Source: Henricia sp. BOLD:AAB3569 (taxonomy: Eukaryota > Echinodermata > Asteroidea > Spinulosida > Echinasteridae). From it: a DNA stretch of 64,000 nucleotides. Below, one piece after another: positions 13,247 through 55,415 of the stretch. The notes under the pieces are model-generated. The model was given only the letters and a program-made list of their open reading frames with translations. It was not told where the DNA came from and searched no databases. Numbering within the stretch: position 1 is the stretch's first letter; each line of letters opens with the position of its first letter. The stretch lies in assembly GCA_037783545.1 (NCBI GenBank), contig JBBELK010000006.1, forward strand, positions 384,501-448,500. Reading direction: 5' to 3'. Position numbers and translations under genes: made by a program.

Positions 13247-13331
13247 ATGAGGCATGTTGTATATTCGTCACTTGTGCTACTGCTATGGATATCTCTAGAA
13301 CTTGTTGGATTCGTTAATGGCGTACAAAACG
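13247..13331 (+). CDS. Receptor gene exon 1 (signal peptide)
   Basis: The frame opens at an ATG in the context CACGATGAGG and codes for 28 residues plus the first base of a split codon. The peptide has the form of a secretory signal: a short basic start (MRH), a hydrophobic core (SLVLLLWISLELVG) and a likely cleavage after VNG at residue 25. It ends exactly at a strong donor (ACG|GTGAGT, intron phase 1). The acceptor at 26857/26858 restores the same frame and joins this peptide to the IgGFc-binding-like ectodomain, which otherwise lacks a start and a signal. The pairing of the two exons is inferred from phase, splice sites and protein logic; no transcript has been seen. Confidence 0.7.
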
Positions 13332-13543
13332 GTGAGTAATACGTCTAAGAGCACGTCTTGGTAAACAGTGTCAGATCACTGACATCATTATGCAATATAG
13401 TTGCACTACAAATAGGCTATACACTACTCCAAGCACATTGGTGAAGTTTCGGTGTGCACGGTTAGTGATTACGACTACCATTTAATAGCCAAACCTGAAA
13501 ATCTTTATTAGGACTATACCTTTCGCTGTCCGTTTTTCACTTA

Positions 13544-13996
13544 AGCGGGCCTCCCACTGTGCGATTTTTTGATACGATTTGCTACGATTAGCTACGATTA
13601 AGTACGATTGTGTGTAGAGTCTATAGACAGTCTCTTGTAATCGTACCAAATCGTACCAGTGGGAGGCCCGCTTTAAGCGGGCCTCCCACTGTGCGATTTT
13701 TGCCACGAATTTCCTACGATTAGCTACGATTAAGTACGATAGTGTGTAGAGTCTATAGACTGCAGTCTCTGGTAATCGTACCAATTCGTAGGAATTTCGT
13801 AGCAAAAATCGCACAGTGGGAGGCCCGCTTTAAACGCCACAAGTTCGTATACGAATTCCCTGCGATTAGTTCAGGTTTTGTTTAGATTACTTGACACTGT
13901 GGACATATAGGCCTAGACAGTCTCATGTAATCTCGACAAATCTTATACCTAATCTTAGGAAATTCATAGCAAAAATCACACAGAGGGAGGTCAGCT
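13544..13996. mobile_element. Three tandem TIR elements sharing TTA target sites (PIF/Harbinger-like)
   Basis: Copy 1 (13544-13672) and copy 2 (13676-13829) have the ends AGCGGGCCTCCCACTGTGCG and its inverse. A third, decayed copy (13833-13996) ends in GAGGTCAGCT. The copies are separated by a single TTA each (13541-13543, 13673-13675, 13830-13832, 13997-13999). TTA is the usual target of PIF/Harbinger elements. The bodies share GATTAGCTACGATTAAGTAC. No transposase. Confidence 0.85.
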
Positions 13997-14043
13997 TTAA
14001 CCAAGACATGTCAAGATATAGAAAGCTCAAATTGTGACATAAG

Positions 14044-14177
14044 GTTGTTGTTGTTGTAGTTTTTTATGGCATCTTCGGCAATTTATGCCATCAACTATAT
14101 ACGGTATAGTTTTAACTTTACTTTCATCTCAAGGTGACGAAAGATGCAGTTTTAGAAGTGGGAGGAAAAAACCCCAA
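14044..14177 (-). mobile_element. SINE 3' fragment
   Basis: Matches the tail half of the SINE at 51755-52042: (GTT)n, TTTTATGGCATCTTCGGCAA, TTATGCCATCAACTATA, GCAGTTTTAGAAGTGGGAGG. The tRNA-like head is absent. Confidence 0.75.
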
Positions 14178-14439
14178 CTATATTTGTGTTACCCCAATAC
14201 ATTAACACACTCTAACCCTTACCTTCTATTGATGAACCAACGCACCCAAAAACCTGAAAAGAATCCTTGGATTCCTTGGTTCTGAGACAATGAATCGGGA
14301 GTACCATTTGCTACATAATTTTGTAGCCAAATGTATCCAAAGTTGTTGAGCGTAAAAGGACTGCACAGATACACCAGATGTGTCACATACAATGCATACA
14401 CGTGCACGTTCATGTATGTGTGAGAGGACACCCTCCTAA

Positions 14440-14945
14440 TGTTTTCCTTTGAAAACAAAAGCTTACTGCAAATCTTGTTGGTCAAAATGGGTTGATATTT
14501 GACCCAACGTTGGGTCAAATATCAACTGTTCCAAAAGTTGGGTAAACATTTTAGCCAACATAATTGGTCAATATATAATTAATGCAGTTATTTACAATTA
14601 TTCAGATATTTTGGGTGTTGAATCTTTTGTTATCAGACCAAGTAGGCCTACATACTGGCCACTGATATACCATTTAAATTCCATGATCGCTCAGTGAACA
14701 GCCGACCATATTTTACCAACAGCAAGTCATTTGCCCAACATCAAACATGACCAACAAATTTGCAGTGCGTTTATTCGACAGGAACAAACAAACTTTACCT
14801 TATTAAAAATTGTAGAAAGAAAGATATGGCACTGCCTTTATCCACTGCCAATGGAATGCCTTGTCCTTTGGAAGGCCAAAGGATGTTTTTGTTCCTGTTG
14901 AATAAACGTTTATTAGATGTTTTGTTTTCAAAGGAAATGCAAAAC
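14440..14945. repeat. Decayed palindromic element with CCAACGTTGG block
   Basis: TTTCCTTTGAAAACAAAAGC at the left is inverted at the right (TTGTTTTCAAAGGAAATGC). An inner hairpin runs from CGTTTATTCGACAGGAAC to its inverse near 14905. Between them are ACCCAACGTTGGGTCAAATA and related blocks also found at 7430-8222. Confidence 0.6.
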
Positions 14946-15124
14946 CCATCTGTTGTGTAGTTCATCACTCATAGCTTTTAACTTGGAGCAATTTTCATTT
15001 AACCCTCTCAGTCAAACAATCATATTTAATTCATTCATGCATGGAAAAAGTGATCGGCTTGCAATTGGTATACCAAAATGAAGCTTAGGACGTAACATGA
15101 TACCAAATTTAGGCAGATGTTGTA

Positions 15125-15435
15125 TTGGGGTTAAATACATTTTACTTTACGACTAAAAAGTGTTGATAGCAATGGTAACAAACACCACATGATTTTTCCG
15201 GTGTCAAATGGTACAGTGGGAGAAATTTCCAACTGAAGGTGTTTTTATTTTTAGAAAAATTGACAGAATTTTGTTTACAATTCATTTAACACAAATAAAA
15301 ATGCATGAATTTTCAAGTTTTGTATTACTGCATCTATGTGGCTGAAATGTCTACAAGGCAGTTTATCAACATTTTCCTTTAGTTATGTAATGCTGTTGTT
15401 CCTGTTTTCGAAAGTTTTCCAATCATGTAGAAATT
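15125..15435 (+). repeat. Dispersed repeat family A copy
   Basis: Carries GATAGCAATGGTAACAAACA, GAAATTTCCAACTGAAGG, TACTGCATCTATGTGGCTGA, GGCAGTTTATCAACATT and TGTAATGCTGTTGTTCCTG in family order. Confidence 0.8.
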
Positions 15436-15439
15436 TGGT

Positions 15440-15500
15440 CGAGTCTCCGGTTTAACGTGCAAGCGCTCTGTACCAACTGAGCCATATACGATCCTATTCA
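15440..15500 (-). ncRNA. Truncated tRNA-like sequence
   Basis: The minus strand reads ATGGCTCAGTTGGTACAGAG then CGCTTGCACGTTAAACC, a good D-arm/A-box and anticodon-stem pattern. The T-arm (B box) is missing, so this is a tRNA pseudogene or SINE head, not a working tRNA. Confidence 0.45.
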
Positions 15501-15948
15501 TTTTGTGGCGTTATTTCCCGAAATGCCTAGCTTGCATGCTCGTTTTTATCTAAGTGTTAACTGTTATACCCAGCTGCAACTCGCTCCCTGTTTAATGAAT
15601 GTTGTCAGTATCTTGAACTGATGTTAACATGACCGGTGTTAAAGAGAACCAATCGTGCATAAGATGACACTAATAGAGGTTACGCCCGGACAGTGTTGGC
15701 GGTTCATGTACTTTTAGTTGCGCGTCAATTGGAATAATTTAAAGCACATTACATAATTTGCAGTAACCCACAATTTTATTTCATGAGTTGACAAGAAAAT
15801 CCTGACTAAAAGTGTCGGTAGCAATGGTAACAAACACCACGTGATTTTTTTCCCGTGTAAAATGGTAGCTTTGTGGGAGGAATTGCCAACTGAAGTGCTT
15901 TTTTTCTTAAATCATTCAACACGAAAACCATTACTGCTTCTATGTATA

Positions 15949-16522
15949 TGTAACCGAGTCGGTGTACAATAAAAATTCATGACAACAGAGGGCATTCAAA
16001 CCAACAGGTATACATTTGATTTATTTAATAAATTTATTTACATTGGCAATTCAAGCTTAACTTTATTATCAAATTGTTTAGCTCAATGTGCTCAGGCAGG
16101 TACTTTCACAAATGCAGAAAGTTAAAAAGGATTGTAAAACGGCACTATCAAACGATACCGTAGCTTATAAGTGTTAAATGACAGTCAAATAGCAGAAACT
16201 TGGCAGCACTACGGCTCAAGCACAGCCCGAAAGGCAGTGTCACGGGCAGTCAGGACAGAAAGAACTCACTAGACCAGCAAGTAGCACTCCCTTATATCTG
16301 GTGTACAGTCATGGTGGATAATAAATAACAAAACATATTGTATCAGGAGGACATACCAAAAATACAAAAGCATTCTACAAGATGGTCACCACCCTCCAGC
16401 AATCAGGGTAGTGGCACAAATAACAATGAATGATCGGTATGTGCATATTTAAAAGATAAAACCTAATGGCTACACTGGGGCTGAACTGTGACCGACCATG
16501 CATGAATGTAGGTCCGGTCACA
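15949..16522 (-). repeat. 3' LTR of the minus-oriented element
   Basis: 574 bp. On the minus strand it starts TGTGACCGGACC, has a TATA-like AGATATAAGGG near 16290-16300, and an AATAAA signal region near its end, as expected for a promoter-bearing LTR. Confidence 0.8.
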
Positions 16523-18047
16523 CTCGCCCCCTAGAAAAAACGAAATAAAAAATTGCATTCATTATACATGTTGCACTAGCTCAACATTGTATACATGCAG
16601 GTCTATCAATATAGTGGACTAACCAGCATTTACACCGGAAAAAGAGTTTACCTCATTATAATCCAGTACACGGCGAGACTAACTGCAGATATGGAATTAA
16701 TTGGAAAATGTTAATGCATTTACAAATAATGTTATGTTATCTGGATAGGCTTTGGAGATATCGGGTGGATATAAGGTCAAGAGGAAAACATACCAAAACG
16801 TCCACCTCCAGGATGTCCCTGGAGAAAACGAGATTATCTCAAAATGGACAGGTACAAAATAATACCTCTTAATTCGGCCTATGTGTCACCACAACTCCAA
16901 ATTTCCTACAAATCTGGCTACATATCGTATTTAAAAATTAATATTCTCCTGCAGTCCAAATTCGGACCATGAAAAGGAATAAATTTACCGAATCTTGTAA
17001 TTCACAAGAACATACGGCTGCAAATACACTTGCGTTTAAAAAGATATTCCAAATAGGATCATTTGACCCCTAACCAATGTCAAATACTCGATCTGGGCTT
17101 GCTAATTCCCAAATGATACGAGTAAGAGACAAGGATCAAGAGAATAAAAACACCACATCTATAGTTTTAACCAATACCAGGCATTAACAACATCTCTCAT
17201 GCTATTAATAAAAGCCCATGGTCTAAAATTGTAAGAAAACATTTTAGACAAAATTGGATACAACCAAGAGAAAATTGACAATTGTATAATTACCAAAATT
17301 TGTGAACTGCATTGTTCTAAAATCGTATCAAAAAATTTGTCATTTCTTTTTTAAAAATAGGTCAGTCTCATTGACACAATCTGTATAATTATAAAACACC
17401 AAGATCAGTTTACTTTAAATAAACTACGCACCATGAATGCACACCAGAACAAGAGTCCTTAAATACCCTTCCAGTCCATGTACTTCGAGCACGCCAGAGC
17501 CGCAGTCAACAGCCAAAATCTGCAATAACGAAACAATTATTAATGGTAAAAATGGTCACATTAAACATATTACAGTAAACTTGGACAATTTACAAAACAG
17601 ACATTTAACTCCGTCATATAAAGCACGTAATGGACGTTAATTGTACCAACATTAAATATTCAAAGAAAATATTTGATAAAAATATTAAGGTAAATTAGTT
17701 GAGTTCCCCTGTCCTGACCAAGAAAATTCAAACCACCGCATGCACTTATCTGATTATGTATGCCGTAGTGCTACAAAGTTCTACTGCACAGCTGTTGTAA
17801 TGCCCCGCGGGTTGTACCAACTTCTCAGTCCGTCATCCATCCTGGCCAGGAAAAGTGCAAGCTTCATTGGACACAGCTCCTCGGAACTTGGTAGCAGCAC
17901 TCCAACGATGATCTCGTAACAATATGACTGTCTTTTAACAACTTTTAAATTATTCTATATATTTACTTTTTTTTAAAGGATGTGATTATTTTATCAACAT
18001 ATAAACCAAATGTATTTTTGAACACCCACCCTGCCGACTACGCCAAT

Positions 18048-18621
18048 TGTAACCGAGTCGGTGTACAATAAAAATTCATGACAACAGAGGGCATTCAAAC
18101 CAACAGGTATACATTTGATTTATTTAATAAATTTATTTACATTGGCAATTCAAGCTTAACTTTATTATCAAATTGTTTAGCTCAATGTGCTCAGGCAGGT
18201 ACTTTCACAAATGCAGAAAGTTAAAAAGGATTGTAAAACGGCACTATCAAACGATACCGTAGCTTATAAGTGTTAAATGACAGTCAAATAGCAGAAACTT
18301 GGCAGCACTACGGCTCAAGCACAGCCCGAAAGGCAGTGTCACGGGCAGTCAGGACAGAAAGAACTCACTAGACCAGCAAGTAGCACTCCCTTATATCTGG
18401 TGTACAGTCATGGTGGATAATAAATAACAAAACATATTGTATCAGGAGGACATACCAAAAATACAAAAGCATTCTACAAGATGGTCACCACCCTCCAGCA
18501 ATCAGGGTAGTGGCACAAATAACAATGAATGATCGGTATGTGCATATTTAAAAGATAAAACCTAATGGCTACACTGGGGCTGAACTGTGACCGACCATGC
18601 ATGAATGTAGGTCCGGTCACA
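18048..18621 (-). repeat. 5' LTR of the minus-oriented element
   Basis: 574 bp; no difference from the other LTR was found on reading the two side by side. Confidence 0.8.
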
Positions 18622-18690
18622 TATAGCTGACATTTCTACAACGTTAAGGCAGTTTATCAACAGTATTCTTTAATGATGTATAATGCTGTT

Positions 18691-19261
18691 GTTCCTGAAA
18701 CTTGTATTTAAAAAAAGTTCATCTGCAAATGATGTTGGCCTTCAAACGCGATTTAGCTATTTTCTTTGGCTGATCCAGCCTTATTATAATACAATATAAT
18801 TAGTGTTTTCTTCAATAATTTAGATTCAGTGTGACCAATCGCCGGGACCAATCGCGATTCGCCACTTATTTTGTAGGCCTTTTGATACAATTTTGCCGGC
18901 GAGTTAAAAGTTCATTGCATCATAAGTTTGCAGTGATCCAAAATATTACATCTATTTCACGTTTGCTAAAAAGGCGATTGCTATACGTAGAGTATTCGGA
19001 ATATCGAGCCCAAGGTGTCATTCCTTTATAATTATATAGACATCCACGTGCAATCCCACCCACACCCCTGCAGTTTACGTGTTGCTGCGTACTATGCAAT
19101 TACACAGCTAAAACTCAAGGCTAAGGAATTATGCAAATTAGGTATTAAATATTCATTGGCAGTTTAATTATTGATAGAGCCTGTAAGTGGTGCCTTCGTG
19201 TTGCGCGATAAATTTTCTTTGAATTAAAAATGGCATGGTCCTATTGCACCCGTAAATAGCC
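18691..19261. other. No gene seen (intron)
   Basis: Intronic sequence with no recognised exon or repeat. Confidence 0.4.
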
Positions 19262-19597
19262 ATTATCACAGATGAAACCTTTCTGCACAAATTCCCGGTC
19301 AGTGAAATTGGTATACTAGTATACATAACATGCAGAAATTTCAGCTATATACGTACGCAGCATTATTTCAGAAAACCTTCAGAATCGACATAAAGTTTTT
19401 TGTGTGTGATAAGTGAATTATAAAACCATATCCAGTTGTTAATTTCCTGCAGAATGGTGCAATTTTCGGTAAAAACAAATTATGGCAGTGGTGTATGCTA
19501 CATTAACACTTTTAAGTAAGGTTTTTTCTTTTTTCTTGTCAACTCAAGAACTAAAATTATGGGTCATTGCAAATGATAATGGCCTTTAAAGGTCCAT
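19262..19597 (-). repeat. Family A copy, minus orientation
   Basis: Shows the inverted family order: GCAGAAATTTCAGC, CAGAAAACCTTCAGAATC, GTTGTTAATTTCC, TTCTTGTCAACTC and GTCATTGCAAATGAT, ending GGCCTTTAAAGG. Confidence 0.75.
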
Positions 19598-20516
19598 TTG
19601 CACATGAAACTGAAAATGATTCTTAACGAAGGAGGAATATTGGTAAACTAGAACATTCCAGCTCCATATATAGATACAGCATTGTTTTAGAAAACCTTAA
19701 AAATCCATGCATGCATAGGTTTTGTGCTATAGTGAAGCCTACACTGCATGTTAACAATTGCCCGTAAACTTTACGGTGGATAGCTGTGCAGCGAGTTGCC
19801 ACCTACTACCGTAATCTTAACGGTTATCCCGTAAATTGTTTAACAGGAAATCCCGTAAAATTCTACATTATTCCCGTATTTTTACGGTGCTTTCCCCGTA
19901 GCTTTTCCCCTGGTGCTCTAATTGCCCCATCCAGTACTATAAACTTCTTCTGATTCATGTAAGGTCCGTGGCTTGACACCAAATCAACTATGTACATTAA
20001 CCTGTAGTGATTTATATTTATTCCCCGTAGTCCGTACATTGCATAGCCCACGGTTGCACACATCTACATACAAAATTAATTTACTATTAGTCGTTCATCC
20101 GATGATAGCTTAAGGTATACCTTTTACGCAACAGCCGTAAATTCTGCATCTTTTCCAAGCAAAAACTCAACTACAAAATGCAAAACAACTGAAAAATTAA
20201 GAAAACTACCATCTTCACGAGGGAAATATGTTCAGTTACGCGCGATCCCACAATGCACTGTGAAAGGAATTTTTTACGGGTTCGGCCGTAAATATTTATT
20301 TACGGGCACTTCCCGTAAACATTTACGTACTTTCTATCGTAACAAATACGGTAATTGTTTACAGTGTAACGTCCACGCTTAAAAAAAAAACCTCCAGTTG
20401 TCAATTTCCTACATTTAGGGCCTATATGGTGTTTGTTACTATTGGTATCAACACATCTAGGCTTTTCTTGTCGACTATATAATGTTAAGTTATTACAAAT
20501 GATACAATGGACCTTG
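19598..20516 (-). repeat. Family A copy split by a CCGTAAA element
   Basis: The left part ends at GTTTTGTGCTATAGTGAAGCC and the right part resumes with CCTCCAGTTGTCAATTTCC, CTTTTCTTGTCGAC and TTACAAATGATACAATGGAC. The element between them is at 19740-20368. Confidence 0.7.
19740..20368. mobile_element. TIR element rich in CCGTAAA motifs
   Basis: Bounded by TACACTGCATGTTAACAATT and, inverted, TACACTGTAAACAATTACCG; both ends carry TA. CCCGTAAA/TTTACGG occurs many times in both directions, more densely near the ends. No transposase. Confidence 0.75.
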
Positions 20517-20702
20517 AAGCTAATGCTGCAGTGCTGATACCGCCAATTGTAATGGCCATTTACGTTTGGTAGAAAGATAATTACGAGTAGAAAGATAATT
20601 TGTTTAAGCAAACGACATTGTACTGAATAAGTGCAACTCGTATGAGCCACTGGAAAGTGTATTCGAACTCCGCGCGCAAAGAACGGCTATTGCAGCGATG
20701 CA

Positions 20703-20778
20703 TCATTTTTATACGGGCGTCGCCATTTTTATATAATGGGCATCGCCATTTTTATATAATGGCATCGCCATTTTTTCC
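20703..20778. repeat. Short tandem repeat, 22-24 bp x 3
   Basis: Three units of the type GGGCATCGCCATTTTTATATA stand in tandem. Confidence 0.75.
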
Positions 20779-20889
20779 GAAAACCGGACAATTAACGAAA
20801 AATCTGTTGGCCTAGATGAGTGAATTTTGAATCGAATTAATTGACACCACGCAGTTCGTAATAGCATGCAATTCGCGTTGAGAACAATA

Positions 20890-21041
20890 TAGACCGTATA
20901 TCGAAATGCTGCCATCTTGTATTTAGGACAGTTTCTTTGTTCCTTGGCGACATGTATGGTTGCACATTTTGTGCTTACATTGTTCACCAATTTAAATTTC
21001 AAAGGCTGCCCTACAAGATGACAGCTATTCGACGCGGTCTA
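20890..21041. mobile_element. MITE, TAGACCGTATCGAATAGCTG family
   Basis: Ends TAGACCGTAT and its inverse (GACGCGGTCTA), with CTGCCATCTTGT next to each end. Preceded by TA. Further copies at 30433-30582 and 36311-36454. Confidence 0.8.
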
Positions 21042-22149
21042 TTACGCTCTTTATTACCGCTGCGAAAATTGATATGTGAAAACTAGAATACATGTATTAT
21101 GATTGGTCAGATGACTTGTACAGCTAATTTTGTGTTTTGAACCGCATAAGGGTTGGCCTATGGTCAAATATCACAGCACTATTCCAAGCAGGAAATTAAT
21201 GTGGGTAGGCCTATACATGTAATTGATTGAACAATTTATTGGGTAATTATTAACTCTTCAAATTTGTTTTAAACTGTAAAACTTTCCCTGCATGCGCATA
21301 ATCAACATCCTGTAAAAGGGCCTTGAAATGCTTAGCTACTGTTCCTATCAGAACCCACGTACTTCTAGGCGTTGTTTTAAAAGTGTATTTGATGGTAATT
21401 TTCCATATCCCCTTCGATAAAAGAATCCCTTTCAAAAATACATGCATAAATGTACACATGTGATCGAGGGGGATATTCATGAGCAGAGTTGTGTTGTCAC
21501 ACTCACAATAATTCCTCATTGGTTTGTGCACAGTATCCGTTCTGTAGGCCTATTTTTCACTTGTTTCAATTGTTTTAAATTTTGTGTAATCCTCCGTAAT
21601 TTGTTGGATTAGAAGGTTTTGTGTTTTTAGTCAATGGAAAACAGAGTAAAAACTGCAGTAGTTTGCGGCAATACCTGTTTAAATTGAAGTAACATGACAC
21701 AAACAGCGCCCTCTCTTGGCAAAACAGTTTCAAATTACAAAAGGTGACTCGTTTTGATTGCAAACGAACATTAACATTTCCAGTGTCTTGTTTAAATATA
21801 AAAAAATTTGCATATTGCAAAGAATAAGCATGAATCAACTATAAACATTTCAGGGCCCTTTAAAGCCAAAGATAGTACATGACGGGAAATTAGCAATTTG
21901 AAGACAGAATAAAAACGTTGCCATTTCCGGGTCGTATTTCCTTTTCCTCGTCCCCTCTGCTCAACAGTGATAGAGCAGTATTTTCAGTCCCATTTCCTCG
22001 GTTATCTGTTTATATTTCTGAGATGCAAACTGATCAACGGAAGGATGTACACTGACATTCGAAGGACCCCATACCTGTTGTCTTACTGGAACAATGCGAT
22101 TTATTCGAATGACCTGGAAGTCTAAAGTATTTTGGGATCAGGAATTATA
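21042..22149. other. No gene seen (intron)
   Basis: Intronic sequence; no recognised exon or full repeat. Confidence 0.4.
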
Positions 22150-22245
22150 GGCCGATTGTATCATTTGCAATGACCCAAAATTTTACTTCACGAGTTGACA
22201 AGAAGAAAAAAAATACGCAATTTGTTGATAGCAACAGTGTATTAT
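22150..22245 (+). repeat. Truncated family A copy
   Basis: GTATCATTTGCAATGACCCA, GAGTTGACAAGAAG and TTGTTGATAGCAACAG are present; the remainder of the family is missing. Confidence 0.65.
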
Positions 22246-22277
22246 TAGGAAGCGTGTTGCGGCCAACTTTTAAAAAT

Positions 22278-22300
22278 AAAATTATTTCATTTCATTTCAT
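22278..22300. repeat. (CATTT)n tract
   Basis: Three to four CATTT units followed by TTATTGTAAAATATT, the kind of tail seen at the 3' end of some LINEs and SINEs. A similar tract is at 48491-48512. Confidence 0.5.
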
Positions 22301-22982
22301 TTTTATTGTAAAATATTTCGTAGCCCTAAGGCCAAATTAAGATTTTGTTTTACCCCCCCAAAAAAAATAATTACACCAAATCACCAATTACACAGTACCA
22401 CCATTTTCGAAATTATAACCCAAGTACAGAACTATCATTGTTTAAGTATTAACAAAATTAAAATTAAAACTGTAAAATATTGCACATTCTTCTTTTGTAC
22501 ACGAGTTAATGATGAATTCCTCTGTTGTTGGTGACATGACATCACGGCCTAGCTCATGAACATGGACATTCTCATTAGCATATTAAGAATAAACAAAACA
22601 TATAGCTACAAACAATTATTAAATTCACTAAAATTTATTGAAATGTGCAAAACGTATGTATAGCATGTTTTTATGTAATAAAATCCTATCGTTTTAAATC
22701 AATAAAAAGTGTCCACAGGCTTATAGAAAACAAATTTGGCTGCGATGTTCCCTTTAAAATGCACACGAAAAGACTGGAAGCTAATTGGTTTGTTCCGTGG
22801 TTGTCAGGTTCTATTGGCATTTTGTTTAATATGATAATCATGTAATTGGTTCATTTAGAATACCTATGTTTAGCTGGGAGTAACTGGGCAGTAAGGACGT
22901 AGACTACTGACCTTTTTCGCTCCGAAGTAATTTTAGCTGCACCTCCTTGAATCAGTTATAATTGCTTCCTTAAAAAATGTTA

Positions 22983-23110
22983 ATATTGATTATTGAAATG
23001 GTGCCAACTTTTTGGGATTTTTCTGTTGTGTGGGATGTGTTTTCTCTTATTGAAATGGTGCCAACTTTTTGGAAGGATTTTTCTGTTGTGTGGGATTTGT
23101 TTTCTCCGCT
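22983..23110. repeat. Tandem duplication, about 63 bp x 2
   Basis: The unit TATTGAAATGGTGCCAACTT followed by TTTTTCTGTTGTGTGGGAT and TGTTTTCTC occurs twice in a row, with a small length difference. Confidence 0.8.
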
Positions 23111-23299
23111 CTTTCTGCTTTCAAACAAACATTTTTATTGGCTCGCCGTGTTAAGCTCTGTGTGAGTGGTCGACTGACGTCCGATGAAAGTTAAGCTCTG
23201 ATTGCCCAATGGGATTTACTGGCAGAAGACCGTTCTTTGGACGCAATCTGATTGTCAAAGTAACGAAAATGGCAACGGGTTACCCGGCTATCCTGACTT

Positions 23300-23547
23300 A
23301 GTGGGGTTGCATCCGAATTAATGGCTTTGGCTGTATAGACAGTACCTGTGACATCTGCTGTTGCTATGCTGTTGCTATTGTCCACCCGTAGCAATAACAT
23401 AGCAACAGCCATATTAGTGTGAATCCACCCTAATGGTGTGATACGCTGGAGTGAAACGAGGCACTGAAAATCACAGCATCTTTTCCTCAAAGCGCGCGAC
23501 GCGCGTCGAATTTACGCGCGAAAAGGCTCAGTGTGAATCCACCCTAA
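23300..23547. mobile_element. Overlapping MITE remains (GCATCCGAATTA and GGGTGGATTCACAC types)
   Basis: 23305-23412 resembles the palindromic element at 40402-40535 (TTGCATCCGAATTAATGGCT, ATAGCAACAGCC) but lacks a proper right end. 23415-23432 and 23529-23546 both read AGTGTGAATCCACCCTA in the same direction, so at least two insertions are mixed. Confidence 0.55.
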
Positions 23548-23593
23548 AATTATCAAGCCGCATAAACACTGCTGTATCACTGACGTCGACCCT

Positions 23594-23809
23594 ATTCATG
23601 CGTTTGAACTGTTCAATCGTGGCTCCTGAATTACTTCTATTGAATTCAAGCTGCTGATTGGAAAGGTGCCACGCTACTTATGCGTTCCAACCCTCGTCTT
23701 CAGGTCGAGGCTCAGGAACGCATACGTAATTGGCACCTTTCCATACAACCAGCAGTTTGCATATAGAACTGATTCAGGGGACACGATTGAACTGTTCAAA
23801 CGCGTGAAT
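23594..23809. mobile_element. Palindromic MITE (GTTCAATCGTG family)
   Basis: Ends ATTCATGCGTTTGAACTGTT and its near inverse, with GCTGATTGGAAAGGTGCCA and its inverse further in. 216 bp, symmetric, non-coding. Compare 4961-5150; a more decayed relative is visible near 24380-24560. Confidence 0.75.
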
Positions 23810-25591
23810 AGAGTGCATAAACAGCCGAAGTGTGACGTTTTGCCATGGTAATTGGCTCTAAACATCATGGCTGTCGGAAAAAGTATTATTGCAAAAGCAC
23901 AGGGACACGGTTCAGTGATTTTTAGTGTAGAGCCATTTCCTAGGGAACTAACAAAAGATGACGTATTCACTTCGGCAGTCTATTGTGAACGTTCTATGCA
24001 TCAGCGCGTCTTCCAAAATGGATACGTGACTACACGTCCGCTTGAAGGTTATCAGTACGCGTTATACGCCCTCTGGCGGTAACTGAAAGTTTGAAATCGG
24101 ATATTGTGGTTATTATTTTGACCCAGATTTTGACATGCCGCATTTCCTTTTAATTATTTACAGTCACAATCACAATACATTAATTATTGTGTGTGCAATT
24201 GGAATAAAAACAAAATATATACAGAACTGTAAAAGGTACAAGGCTCATCTGTACAGAAAAAAACATCGCCATCTTAATTGCTTGCACAAGACATGCGCGT
24301 TAGGCCATCTATTACAGTTGACTCGATAACTATAAGTCTATTGTTAGAAATTTGCCACGATTAGCCTCCTGTTCAGTGTTCAGTCGAGGCATGAACACGC
24401 ACGTATCTATGCGTGAAACGTGATCTCAGCACCTACCATTGATTCTTGCATAATGTCGAGCCCCAGCCATTTATTTCGGGCGCGTCCGAGGTTTTGGAAC
24501 GCATAAATAGTATGGCAATTTCTCAGTCGACAGGTTACATTTTACAGAACTGACTCGATTACTTCCGCACGAGGCGTGTTTGGGTGGGCTTTCCGGGGGT
24601 GTCAGGAAGGGCAAAATGGAACCTTTAACTTGAATAGGAGTAACTTCTCAGCAGTGCATGGCCTCGATGAAGTCTATGCCACACATGGGTCGGTCTCCGG
24701 CCATTTCTTGACCAGTTTCCGGCTTCTTAAAGATATATTCCAGGATCTGAAAACTGTTACACGTAGCGTTATCTCCACGTGTGATTCACGTGTATGATGA
24801 AAAACCAACCTGTGCATTAAAGTCAGCTCAGTACCCCATCTACGTTTCAAGAAAACAATGAAAAACTATGTCCACGCTTTCAAGAAAATGTGCGAACCAT
24901 TCGTCAGAGTCCCTGCTTGGCTATACAACTGCATGCACGAGAAAATGGGGCTTTCATCGAGGCCTAGTCTCGTTCACATGAGTGGTATGTGGTTAATTAT
25001 TGCACGGATACGTTCGAAACGAGGCTGTGCACGCATACGTCAAATTTTACTTAACAACCGCTACAGTTATTGCGTGGTCGGCCTCGCCGCTCGGCCAATA
25101 TGGCGGTTCCGTTCTTGCCTATATATCGTAAACGTTGGTGCGATATAATGAGGTGCATTATGGGCTGTTGAAACAAACGGTAGGTTACTCATTTCAACAT
25201 AATAGTGAGGTTTCGGTCGCACACGGTTAGGCAAAACGCCGACTATTAGTAAATGTTGCGTCATCGGTATGTGCGTACTTGTGGCATTTACACAAATATC
25301 CCAAGTGTGGTTTTGTTGTCTACACTAACAATGCTTGTACACCTTGGCTAAAAACGGGTAGCAAATAGTAAATATTTTGGGGTTTAGGCCACTAACCGTG
25401 CACACCGAAACCTCCCTAATGTTTCTAGGCAAACTGAGGTGTACATGAGATCCCTGAACGTATGCGTCAGACTCCCTTGTCTCATCCCATAAGCATTGCA
25501 CAGTGATGAAAACATGACCAAGATCCAGTCTTGTAGTGAAGTATAAAGAAGAAAACAAACACGCACAAAATGAAGCAAACAAAACTCAAAG
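23810..25591. other. No gene seen (intron)
   Basis: Intronic sequence with only short open frames and a decayed copy of the preceding MITE family near 24380-24560. Confidence 0.4.
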
Positions 25592-25845
25592 TTTAGGGTG
25601 GATTTACAATGAGCCTTTTTGCGCGTATAATTGCAACGCGCTTCTCTTTGAGAAAAAGCGGTGAGGAGGGAATTTGGAGTGAAACGACAAACTAGAAATA
25701 AGAGAATTAAAAAACAAAATTCCGCCCAAGTTGATTCTGTGATTTTTGGTGCACTGAAACCACAGAATCAACTTGATTTTGTGATTCTGTTGTCTTCAGT
25801 GCGTCGTTTCACTCCAAATTCCCTCCACATCGCTTTTTTGTGCTA
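25592..25845. repeat. Foldback element with GGGTGGATTTACA end
   Basis: GAGGGAATTTGGAGTGAAAC at the left is inverted near 25795-25825 (GTTTCACTCCAAATTCCCTC), and AAGTTGATTCTGTG is inverted around 25760-25775. The outer left end matches the GGGTGGATTCACAC type near 23529. Confidence 0.65.
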
Positions 25846-26321
25846 ACTACACAGATCTGCATTACTCAAAATTGGCCCTAAAATGCCAACGGGTTACAGA
25901 CGCCTTCGAATTAGTTGCCATGGTGGCAGGTAATCAGCCGTGTCTCCTGGCCAATCCCATGACGCCAGTGACATGACGTCATCAATCAATCGTCCATTCA
26001 CAGTGGATGCGTTTAATCTAGGACGATGGGCCGGGCAGAAGTAAAACTAGCCTGTTTTTCCTTGTAGATAGTCGCGTGTTAATGTGGCAATAACGCGTGA
26101 CGCCATGTTTAAACACAGTGTTCCTGGAGAGACACGAGAAAAAAAGAAGATAAATGCTTGATATATCTGAAGGACGTGGGTATAAATAATTGCGAGTCTT
26201 TTTATAGACTATAGATAATGCTGATATTTTAATAAATGACGTTCATCCGTTGACTTTCCCCATTGAAGCATAATATATTCTTATTTGAGGAGGAATTGCA
26301 TGGACTTAGGTCAACGAGCAT
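25846..26321. other. No gene seen (intron)
   Basis: Intronic sequence; nothing recognised. Confidence 0.4.
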
Positions 26322-26458
26322 TAAAGACACATGCTCGTCAGCAATGTGCGCGCGCTAAATTCGTGCCACAAATTACGCAGCTCCATAGCAAAGGCATGGA
26401 GCTGCGTATTTCGTTGCACGAATTTGGCGTGTGCGCATTACCGACGAGCCTCTGCCTT
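26322..26458. mobile_element. Palindromic MITE (TGCTCGTCAGCAATGTGCGC arms)
   Basis: AAAGACACATGCTCGTCAGC to the centre near 26390 is inverted to GACGAGCCTCTGCCTTTAAA. The middle repeats GCAGCTCCAT and its inverse. One arm alone occurs at 7338-7395. Confidence 0.75.
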
Positions 26459-26469
26459 TAAATGCCCAT

Positions 26470-26775
26470 TATCATTTGCAGATGAAACTTTTAATAGGAA
26501 TTCCAGGAGCAACAACATTACATACCTAAAGCATAATGTTGATAAACTGCCTTGTACATATTATGCAGTATTACTTCAGAAAACCTTTAAAATCTATTCA
26601 TTTTTGTGTGTGTGAATGAATGGTAAAGAAATTTGTGCGCCCACATTTTTTTTCTTTTAGTAATTTATAATTTCTCCCACAAAAATATACATTTTATACA
26701 GAAACAAAATCATCAACTCCTTTAGGAGGGTTTTCTTGTCAACTCATTATATAAAATTTCAGGCTATCAGGCAAA
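26470..26775 (-). repeat. Family A copy, minus orientation
   Basis: AACAACATTACATACCTAAAG, GATAAACTGCCTTGTA, CAGAAAACCTTTAAAATC and GGGTTTTCTTGTCAACTCA stand in inverted family order. It ends about 80 bp before the splice acceptor of exon 2. Confidence 0.75.
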
Positions 26776-26857
26776 ATCAGTGGACGTTCAAAAGTTACCT
26801 CCATTTTACAATATGTGGGCTTGTTTTAAAAATGTGTCATCTTTTCCCGTTATGCAG

Positions 26858-29358
26858 GACGTACTCAATGTCCGTCAGCAAACAGCAAAGGTAGGGAGTT
26901 CGTAGTAGCCTTTATGGAGACAATGACTCCCTCAGCAGACCCCAGGCTCTACATCATCGGTGCTTCAGCTCGCCCTACTCGGGTCACCATCCAATCACCT
27001 CGCAATCCGGACCTGAGCGTGTCCATCTCGCACGAGTCCTGGATCAAGGTGATCGATGAGGAGGGACCGAGCACATCGGGCATCCTGATCACAGCAGACA
27101 ACGAGGTAACAGTGTACGGGGTCGAGGAAGGAAACTCGATGGATTCCTTCCTTGCGCTACCCACTAACGCCCTGGGCATGGAATATTATGTAGCCTCTTA
27201 CAGCATCTCGACTAGATTGACGAGGGATCAAAGGAAGTCCCAGTTCACACTGGTTGGGGTTCTGGACGACACCATGGTAGATATAGCCCTCTCCGGCTCG
27301 GTGATGTATCAAGGCCGGATGTACAGAAGCGGAGAGCAGATCCTACTCACGCTGGATAGACTGCAGGTTTTACACTTCGCGAGTGAGGATGATGACCTCA
27401 CAGGCACGCATATTATAGCCACTAGGAATATCGGTGTGTTGTCGGGCAGCAAATGCACCGATGTCCCGGTCAATATGAGATACTGCGACCACCTGGTTGA
27501 GATGCTTCCTCCGGTGAAGAGCTGGGGGAGGGCTTACATCACCTCGCCTCTCTACGGACGATCATACGGAGACGCCTTCCGCATTCTTGCCGCTCGCGAT
27601 CGTACCACGGTCACGGTGTCCTCGCACGGTGGTGCCACTCTACATGCTGGTCAATTCTACGAGATCGAAATATTGTCCAATTCCAGCAGCACCATCACCG
27701 GTGATAAGCCATTCCTCGTGGTTCAGTACAGTCTTGGTGGCGACGCCGATCAGACCTCAGGAGACCCATTCATGACCCTGGTGCCTTCTGTCGAGCAGTT
27801 TTCTAGTAATGCCGTGTTTTATACAATCGAGTCGACTTTCTCCCATCTGACCAACTACGCCAATGTGATCATCGAGTGCCAAAATGTGAGGGGACTGCAG
27901 CATAACCTATTCGAAATCCCTATCTCGCGGTTCAGCAAGCTGGACAAGCTGAGGCAATCTCTGGATGGCCGCGAGTATTGCACCGCCCAGATGATGTTAG
28001 CTAACGGTGTGCACTTCCTGCGGCACACTAAACCGGAGGTCCGGTTCTCACTCACCCTGTACGGCATGGGCGCCAGCAGGGGAGCAATCGCTTACGGAAT
28101 GCCGGCTGACTTGCGATTACCTGATCTCGCTTGTGAGTCTCTTATCCCCGTCTATGAAGAAACCTCCACCATTTTGACATCAGAAACCCACAACCCCACT
28201 CCTCAATGCCCAACTGCAAACGTTGGTTTGCCGGATCTTAGTATCTCACCGCATCCGTTGGGGCCGTCAGTCAACGAGTCTCCGGCCAACTCCTCCTCTG
28301 GGAAGTACCTAGCGCTTGCCGTTTTTGTAGCACTCTTTTCGCTCGTCACCATATTAGTCTTGGTCGTGTATATAATCATCTTGCGGAGACGCATCAGCAA
28401 ACTCGAAGCAGAACGCAAGACGTACAGTCGCTTCCACATGAGTCCCGTGGTGGTGGGAGCGGATGGTTACATTGGCCTAGATGGCAGCCAGCACCCGGAG
28501 AGGGATTATATGACGCTAAACAACCCTCAGGGAGTCTGGCGACTAGGCAGAGTGCGTCGCACTGGCCGTTCGCCAACTGGGGTCCCCTACGTGGCCAATG
28601 CAGCCATCAACACGAATTCAAATGGAATATCGCATATATCGGAGCCTGTGCTGTTGCCCAGCACCAGAAACAGTGTTAACGGCTCTGTTTCCGGGAGAAA
28701 ACGCAGCGCGCCGGAGAGCTTCAACCGTACTCTGAGCATGGACAGCAGCCATGCACTGCACTTCTCCCGTCGACACAGCAGCATCGACGTGGTGAGTATT
28801 AACAGTCAGCAGAGTCGCAACAGTACGACGGACTCACCGCCTGCGGAGAGCCGCCAAAATGGCTTGCACACAGCTCCCGAAAGCTCTGCCCCGCAAGTGA
28901 CTCGTAAGCAGAGCTTTCAGGAGCTTCATGACATTGCCGAGTGTCCGGACAAAGAGCCACCTCCGAGGTCTAAACATCTAGTACGTAGCGTCAGCCAGCC
29001 GTCCTACCAGACCTCACTCAAGACGCAAGCGCCAAAGGTCTATTACTCAGTCCCCAAGAACAGCAGGGCACGCGTTCTCTACGACAGACCCAGGAAGCGG
29101 TCCAGCAGCGTAGAGGAAGGGTGCCCGGTCATATTCTCCATGAAGGAGTCGTTGATAAAACAGGACGATGGGTACATGAGCATGAGGGACCACAGAACTT
29201 CAGTGTCTAGCCAGGGTAGCTCCAATGTGTCCCTTAGTTCCAGCCCTGTGGCCGTGTCTCCACCGGACACGCCGTGCAATGTGGAGCCAGATGAGGACGC
29301 CACCGCAGGTGCTGATAGTGGGGAAACAGATTCCACGGATTACACAGAGTTATTTTAA
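26858..29358 (+). CDS. IgGFc-binding-domain receptor, exon 2 (ectodomain, TM, signalling tail)
   Basis: With exon 1 the protein is 861 residues. Residues about 130-440 form an IgGFc-binding-like domain (the N-terminal domain type of FCGBP, widespread in marine invertebrates): seen are SGSKCTDVP (Cys228), YCDHLVEMLPPV (Cys238), SWGRAY and GDAFRILA, in the family order. A Ser/Thr/Pro-rich stalk with NES and NSS sequons leads to one hydrophobic helix at about 512-535, then RRR. The tail (about 325 residues, Ser/Arg-rich) has DGYIGL (Tyr566) and RDYMTL (Tyr579) with nine residues between the two YxxL boxes, DDGYMSM (Tyr801), TDYTEL at the C-terminus (Tyr857), RSVSQP (738-743, a 14-3-3 mode-1 pattern) and basophilic sites such as RRHSS. 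Everything after the signal peptide is in this one exon. The acceptor is TTATGCAG|GA; an internal ATG at 26914 would lose the signal peptide. Ligand unknown; IgG binding itself is not expected in an invertebrate. Confidence 0.85.
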
Positions 29359-53862: not shown

Positions 53863-54900
53863 ATGACAGATTCGACTTCTATTGAGGCGTCCGGATTTAC
53901 AGGAGGCGCACGACGCACAATGATTGCGGACAAACCAGGAGATTGCATGGGCACCTCCACTCGTGAGCGAGCCATGCAGTAATTAAATGAGAGATTTCGC
54001 CTCCTACAGAGGGAGACGGAGCAAGCAGAGGCCCAAATGAAACAGCTTCTGGTTGCAACTTCGAGCTTGACTCACGTGAGGCCTGATGAGGCCGACAAGG
54101 AGATAGAGTTTAAGCGAGGCGCAAGAGGCGCCATAGAAACCACAGGATATGGCTCTGTGTCGGAACACCCGAGAGTGACGCAGAGGACCAAGTCTGAGGC
54201 GCTACAGCAGAGCGCTATTACGCCCGTAAGGGTGAATGAAGATAGAACGTGGAGGCCGCTGGCGAGGTCCACGGAACAAAGGCAGTCAAAGGACGACAGC
54301 GAACTCAAAGCTGCGCCTCCGACGGACGCAAGAGGCGCAACGAGTACTCCAGATGTGGAGTTAGCACTTGACGGGATGGAGGGCAAGAAGACCTCTCCCG
54401 ATGTCCCATGGGAATTAAGAAGGGACGCGAGATTTCGTGGAGAGCAGCAATGGAAGAAACGCTTCGGTTATGACGTGAGGCGCCCAAGGATTGTTCCAGA
54501 CATATTCAACGGAAAACAACCGTGGATAGACTATAGGGGACACTTCGAGGCCTGTAAGCAGGTAAACGGTTGGAGTGATGAGGAGGCCGCGGCCTATCTT
54601 GCCGCTAGTCTCCAAGGACCGGCCGTGAAAATCTTGACCAGTCGTCAAAGAGAGAAAAAGGATAGACGATTTAGTTACAAGGAGCTAATGGACTTACTAA
54701 CTGCGCGTTTTGGTCCGGGACAGATGGCAGAGAATTTTCTCATCGAGTTGAGAAACCGTCGCCAAGGCCCCAAGGAAACGCTGCAAGAACTCGGCGAGGC
54801 AGTGCGGGAACTTGCCGCCCTGTCTTACCCAGAACTCTCAGATGAGAGTAGAGACAGATTGGCCCGGGGTCATTTTTCTGATGCTACCACCAGACCATAA
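53863..54900 (+). pseudogene. gypsy gag (capsid), one in-frame stop
   Basis: The frame starts at ATG 53863 and is broken by TAA at 53980-53982, then continues open to 54900. The N-terminal part has a coiled-coil-like Glu/Arg/Gln-rich stretch; the later part (VPDIFNGKQPWIDYRGHFEA, LAASLQGPAVKIL, FGPGQMAENF, LQELGEAVRELAALSYPE) is the retrotransposon gag/capsid pattern. A frame change follows the stop at 54900, since the zinc knuckle continues one frame over. Confidence 0.8.
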
Positions 54901-55415
54901 AGGATGAACAGAAGAATCCAGAGACACCTGCGCCTCCGGAGAGGCGACGGGACACACGGGTCTATAGGCAGCGTGTGAGGAGAGCTGCAAACCCGGAGGA
55001 CAAGTGTTATAAGTGCCAGGAAATGGGGCACTTCGCCAGGGATTGCCAAGGAAAAACGCTGCCGGGAAACGACCAACAGCCGACTCTGCGACCGGAGAGG
55101 AGGCTGGACACTAGAAGGGGACGATCAAAGCAGGACATCGTTAGGAAACGCCGCAGTCATTCAAACCAAAAATGGAAACGAATGTCTCGGTGGGAGTCGA
55201 CAGATGGAACGGTGACGGAATGGAAGATTGTCCTACCCGAGGAACTCAGAGAGGACGTGCTTAAGGAACTACACGGTGGTGTAACCGGAGGCCATTTTGG
55301 GGTGGAACGAACGCTAGCCAAGGTGAAGGAGCGGTACTATTGGGCTAACATGGCTGCAGACGTACGGTCGTTCTGCCGGAGGTGCCTAAAGTGTGCCCAA
55401 CGTAAATCGCCTTGA
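54901..55415 (+). pseudogene. gypsy nucleocapsid knuckle fused to integrase start
   Basis: CYKCQEMGHFARDC (55005-55046) is a CCHC knuckle. From about 55185 the frame reads as the linker and H2C2 zinc-binding domain of integrase (LREDVLKELHGG, GGHFGVERTLAKVKERYYW, CRRCLKCAQRK), ending at TGA 55413-55415. Everything that should lie between (protease, RT, RNase H) is gone, so the junction is between about 55090 and 55185. Confidence 0.8.

Follow-up and report, generated by a model that had tools for sequence, protein, structure and literature searches.

We describe here a starfish gene, on the plus strand of the 64,000-nucleotide stretch of DNA that was analysed (the window), whose predicted product joins an IgGFc-binding ectodomain to one membrane span and to a long tail in which tyrosines followed by L or M at +3 and preceded by Asp cluster in a non-random manner. 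We give roughly even odds (a probability of about 0.5) to the reading that this product crosses the membrane once as a surface receptor of the FCGBP-type (IgGFc-binding) family and that its tail, when phosphorylated, docks SH2 proteins; the more specific proposal that a Syk-type kinase would dock through the motif pair YIGL/YMTL is tentative, and we hold it doubtful rather than likely. A receptor with an ITAM-like pair, a PI3-kinase p85 site and a 14-3-3 site had been proposed in an earlier, sequence-only reading, and that interpretation is partly supported by the present analysis.

The gene model consists of two exons. An open frame of 842 codons runs from stop to stop at positions 26830–29358, and an acceptor AG (26856–26857) lies just before its coding part; exon 2 (26858–29358) holds the remaining coding sequence including the stop codon, and the range 28440–29358 to which the sequence-only reading was attached is the tail portion only. 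The 16.8 kb between 10000 and 26800 were scanned for exons that combine a start codon, a hydrophobic stretch and a phase-compatible donor, which gave two candidates. As the residue numbering of the sequence-only reading requires a first exon of 29 residues, the candidate with the fitting length is that at 13247–13331, which has a start codon and a putative signal peptide, encodes MRHVVYSSLVLLLWISLELVGFVNGVQN followed by G (28 codons and the first base of a split Gly) and ends in the donor ACG/GTGAGT, with GTGAGT at 13332. With this candidate exon the gene would extend from about 13247 to 29358 around an implied intron of 13.5 kb. No Pfam match above the cut-off came from ten sense open frames lying between the exons at 20 to 26.6 kb (one match, Ten_N with E 0.06, fell below it), and additional domains between the two exons were set aside for lack of Pfam support in these frames. 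The in-frame codon score of the tail is +0.238, whereas none of the other five frames exceeds 0.155 and the 3' flank scores between -0.21 and -0.11; over the tail's middle third, however, a different frame is slightly ahead (0.242 versus 0.211). Codon usage in the tail resembles that of the domain family and differs from that of the 3' flank. Taken whole, the tail looks coding, and the gene looks genuine. A strong internal donor-like site, GTG/GTGAGT (28789–28797, donor at 28792), is found inside the tail exon; if used, it could yield a shorter tail which keeps the ITAM-like pair and lacks YMSM and YTEL. Elsewhere in the window we noted a broken Ty3/gypsy-type element (53983–55412) with CCHC, integrase zinc-binding and, below the cut-off, gag-like pieces, and on the minus strand an exon encoding part of a transporter of the major facilitator superfamily (PF07690; 62257–63120).

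A Pfam search of the frame identified the IgGFc_binding domain (PF17517) at 27142–28065, frame residues 105–412, with an E value of 5.3e-71 and a score of 239.7 bits (cut-off 25.6), and the match covers all 297 positions of the profile (1–297). It was the only domain above the cut-off, with no match to VWD, PH or PTB. Upstream of it lies an N-terminal part of the ectodomain (26884–27141, starting KGREFVVAFMET), for which structure comparison of the AlphaFold model gave a weak likeness to a beta-sandwich. The ectodomain model is all beta with a mean pLDDT of 71, and fold comparison of this model returned no match strong enough for use. The end of the ectodomain and a Ser/Thr/Pro-rich stalk occupy 28066–28305, judged by composition and by the model, in which most of the final 80 residues ahead of the span have a pLDDT under 50. 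Hydropathy then predicts a single membrane span, YLALAVFVALFSLVTILVLVVYIIIL, followed by RRR (28306–28383, frame residues 493–518), and the claim of a single-pass receptor with an IgGFc-binding-like ectodomain is borne out to this extent. Nine bacterial loci (L050–L058) encode a related ectodomain with 27–38% identity over the matched part; their hosts include Bacteroidetes, Ignavibacteriae, Kapaibacterium and Thiothrix, and a Bernardetia plasmid encodes one with 27% identity. These relatives agree with the presence of the N-terminal domain of FCGBP in bacteria, as stated in a review (PMC9505182).

The distribution of the family in the same genome was addressed by a profile search of the 740.7 Mb assembly (2104 contigs), which found PF17517 in 14 places, that of the window and 13 others. 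A candidate membrane span was found by hydropathy in five of the eight relatives whose downstream DNA was read (L005, L006, L010, L013 and L014) and not downstream of L004, L015 (on contig C168) or L016, with the reservation that some spans may have been lost to the output filter (GC above 0.42 or length above 150) and that the count leaves out L007–L009, L011 and L012, the last two of which lie just upstream of L015. L005 and L006 are identical at 1318 of 1326 bases and may be two haplotypes of one gene; counted in this way, the span is present in four of seven distinct genes. Membrane anchoring is thus common for the family in this genome, and the suggestion that a usually secreted family had here become a membrane receptor holds for the span itself and loses its exceptional character. 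In L010 the span is preceded by AMOP, VWD, MUC4-type C8-3 and Sushi domains (Pfam, hydropathy). Both candidate tails among the relatives are without an ITAM-like pair, that of L010 having no Tyr and the proposed L013 exon no YxxPhi motif, and for L005 and L014 no next exon within 20 kb passed the filter. The window gene differs from its relatives in its long tyrosine-motif tail, which shares an exon with the domain. With regard to arrangement, L007–L010 (G000:C298:3.47-3.59 Mb) are four related IgGFc-binding gene copies about 35–50 kb apart, while L012, L011 and L015 (G000:C168:190321-196664) are three consecutive IgGFc-binding domains within 6.4 kb, perhaps one three-domain gene or a tandem array.

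The predicted cytoplasmic tail is Ser-rich and comprises 324 residues (28384–29355, from hydropathy and codon score), matching the earlier estimate of about 325. Its ten tyrosines are, in the numbering of the sequence-only reading, residues 551, 566, 579, 606, 745, 757, 758, 770, 801 and 857. In four of them the +3 residue is L, I or M, and each of the four has Asp at -1 or -2; the remaining six show neither feature. The four motifs are YIGL (Tyr566, 28468–28479) in the context ADGYIGL, which resembles the hemITAM core, YMTL (Tyr579, 28507–28518), which together with YIGL forms the ITAM-like pair with nine residues between the halves, YMSM (Tyr801, 29173–29184) in the p85-like context DDGYMSM, and YTEL (Tyr857, 29341–29352) close to the C-terminus. 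The 14-3-3-like site RSVSQP starts at residue 738 (28984–29001). All five had been placed at the correct residues, given a first exon of 29 residues.

Each of YIGL, YMTL, YMSM and YTEL also fits the YxxPhi sorting signal. The product could be mucin-like and anchored in the membrane, with a tail that controls endocytosis and recycling through AP-2-type recognition, with Ser sites regulating traffic and with no ITAM signalling, and the presence of a span in several relatives, together with the resemblance of the L010 type to membrane mucins, speaks for it. We judge this explanation unlikely but deserving of serious weight. Asp at -1 or -2 of Tyr is more typical of tyrosine-kinase substrates, and it is found at all four sites; moreover, 324 residues are long for sorting alone, and neither dileucine nor NPxY occurs in the tail. 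The same pattern scan found no ITIM ([IVLS]xYxx[LIV]), ITSM or YxN.

Shuffling of the tail was used to assess whether such motifs would arise by accident. The four YxxL/I/M tyrosines compare with a shuffle mean of 1.0 (P 0.01), and the four sites which also have Asp or Glu at -1 or -2 compare with a mean of 0.2. At least four such acidic sites were seen in six and two per 100,000 shuffles in two runs (P 6e-5 and 2e-5) and in none of 20,000 dipeptide-preserving shuffles, and looser definitions of the set gave P values of 0.001–0.004. The definition was picked post hoc, with the sequence already inspected, and the smallest P values are optimistic since 18 patterns were tried, some of them defined with the sequence already known. 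Within the ectodomain, none of 19 tyrosines fits YxxL/I/M. The ITAM pattern YxxL/I-x(6-12)-YxxL/I, present as YIGL-x9-YMTL, occurs in 1.1% of shuffles (P 0.011); the claim of an ITAM-like pair stands for this wider spacing and for the acidic residues ahead of both tyrosines, but the strict x(6-8) spacing is absent from the tail. The hemITAM core DGYxxL is present with P 0.001 to 0.018 depending on the type of shuffle, and the acidic residue directly ahead of DGY is missing from it, the residues being G-A-D-G-Y. The other individual motifs are less rare. DDGYMSM is the only YxxM of the tail (P 0.17 alone), and RSVSQP fits RSxSxP (P 0.06); as both patterns are common in shuffled tails, these single sites are weak evidence for p85 and 14-3-3 binding, and the two earlier assignments are weakened. 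Two YxxP sites are at chance level (P 0.19 and 0.13), and R-x(1-2)-S sites number 13 against a mean of 8.8 (P 0.065).

It follows that an accidental origin of the tyrosine set is unlikely, the acidic-YxxL/M set being rare in shuffles. The corresponding explanation, in which the motifs are chance products of a long, fast-evolving, disordered Ser-rich tail on an adhesive or scavenging surface molecule devoid of tyrosine signalling, is one we rate as rather improbable. It draws on the P values of the single patterns (YxxM, RSxSxP and ITAM, among the 18 tried) and on the isolation of the tail, for which sequence searches, including that of its own genome, return the tail itself and nothing else, in a single copy in the assembly. 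Its difficulties are the joint acidic-YxxL/M count, which clearly exceeds both mono- and dipeptide-preserving shuffles, and the lack of any YxxL/I/M site among the 19 ectodomain tyrosines. A third explanation, an IRS- or Gab-style docking scaffold in which YMTL and YMSM are sites for a receptor tyrosine kinase and for PI3-kinase and not for Syk, is improbable, for the likeness of DYMTL and DDGYMSM to insulin-receptor-type substrate sites, the slight excess of R-x(1-2)-S sites and the p85 genes of this genome are set against the lack of a PH or PTB match in the frame and the single YxxM.

Under the preferred reading of an SH2-docking receptor, the ectodomain of the expressed protein would bind a ligand on a surface or particle and the resulting clustering would lead Src-family kinases to phosphorylate the acidic-YxxL/M sites. 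Phosphorylated YIGL/YMTL might then dock a Syk-type tandem SH2 kinase, and PI3-kinase might bind phosphorylated YMSM through its p85 subunit. In coelomocytes or epithelium the outcome would probably be adhesion or uptake. We count against SH2 docking the spacing of nine in the pair and its absence from the two candidate tails of the relatives, the fit of the same four sites to YxxPhi, the partly post hoc statistics and the lack of any relative of the tail except itself. To these can be added that neither 'IgGFc' nor 'FCGBP' appears in the main text of a proteomic survey of starfish coelomocytes (PMC13409769). A bolder version, in which an ITAM-bearing activating receptor derived from a mucus family feeds directly into Syk, Src-family kinases and PLC-gamma for coelomocyte uptake, or even acts as a missing upstream receptor for tyrosine-kinase-driven calcium release at fertilisation, seems to us quite improbable; the molecules of that release are described as partly unidentified (PMC11593052).

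The proteins that would read these motifs are encoded in the same genome as the receptor gene. On the minus strand of contig C329, from 2991534 to about 2985500, exons for an N-SH2 domain, a Syk-type inter-SH2 linker and a C-SH2 domain, the last in pieces, lie in order, and further along the same strand are kinase exons with 61% and 68% identity to SYK, the top two values among 139 matches. The queries were a tandem SH2 sequence of human SYK, which aligned at full length with solved SYK, and a SYK kinase sequence. To judge by these matches, the C329 exons are those of a Syk orthologue, the linker resembling that of Syk; ankyrin repeats are the mark of Shark. The p85 iSH2 region was found in two places and 14-3-3 in 18 places, counted exon by exon, and a Syk-type tandem SH2 kinase, p85 and 14-3-3 are therefore all present in this genome. 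A Syk transcript is reported from the egg transcriptome of the starfish Patiria miniata (PMC11593052), and Syk/ITAM signalling has been proposed to be ancient in invertebrates, in passages which do not mention echinoderms (PMC5978004).

Several genes are doubled on separate contigs with the same or almost the same score, and both haplotypes thus seem to be partly present in the assembly. Contig C2104 (16,221 bases) is the mitochondrial genome. In its COX1, AAA encodes Asn at DRNVNTTFFDP and ATA encodes Ile at PEVYILILP, residues which we take to be conserved; this indicates the echinoderm/flatworm code (table 9) and not the general invertebrate one, and the invertebrate host that had been supposed is supported. 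Open frames judged by eye together with tRNA predictions gave the gene order cox1-R-nad4L-cox2-K-atp6-cox3-S-nad3-nad4-H-S-nad5-nad6-cob-F, in which nad1, nad2 and the tRNA block are inverted, the arrangement of Asteroidea. Code and gene order together indicate a starfish. Contig C955 (48,576 bases; L032–L034) holds three COX1 copies at intervals of 16,221 bases, which is the length of C2104 (L035), and probably represents head-to-tail mitochondrial copies that arose during assembly.

Should the tail function as its appearance suggests, the gene would provide a concrete upstream partner for the echinoderm Syk kinase and a testable surface receptor of starfish coelomocytes. Comparison with known systems shows which of its parts are shared. 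Dectin-1 and CLEC-2 have a C-type lectin ectodomain and type II topology; their hemITAM core DGYxxL is matched around Tyr566, but where they have an acidic residue ahead of DGY the starfish protein has Ala. The engulfment receptors Draper, CED-1 and MEGF10 have EGF-repeat ectodomains and NPxY motifs, in contrast to the starfish tail with its zero NPxY. They too are single-pass proteins, and Draper has been tied to ITAM-type signalling via Shark (PMC5978004).

Allorecognition receptors offer a further comparison. One paper describes tails with hemITAM, ITIM and core YxxI/L/V motifs in the tunicate Botryllus and, for the cnidarian Hydractinia, motifs of both the ITAM and the ITIM type, so that the fester co-receptors (FcoR) and Alr are also invertebrate receptors with motifs of this kind (PMC12065747). 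FcoR has Ig and sushi ectodomains and both FcoR and Alr belong to allorecognition loci, whereas the starfish gene has an IgGFc-binding ectodomain and a YxxL pair with no ITIM. The supposed novelty is narrowed by these cases: invertebrate ITAM or hemITAM receptors built on other ectodomains have already been reported, and it is the combination with IgGFc-binding for which we found no description among the literature matches listed (titles and abstract starts), none of the papers searched naming IgGFc-binding together with ITAM. With respect to the ectodomain, IgGFc-binding is among the domains named in a figure legend on sponge pattern-recognition receptors, a legend that mentions no tyrosine motif (PMC8242945), and work on sea star wasting describes an adhesion-related IgGFc-binding protein transcript which is not known to be the same gene (PMC10320347). 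The bacterial IgGFc-binding-like proteins of Bacteroidetes, Thiothrix and others are alike in the matched ectodomain. FCGBP, which has the IgGFc_binding domain (PF17517) in common with the starfish protein, is a vertebrate mucus protein with VWD domains, whereas the starfish protein has a span, a long tyrosine tail and no VWD match. If its tail signals in the proposed manner, echinoderms would have attached ITAM-type signalling to a recognition domain that is common to animals and bacteria and is used in mucus barriers.
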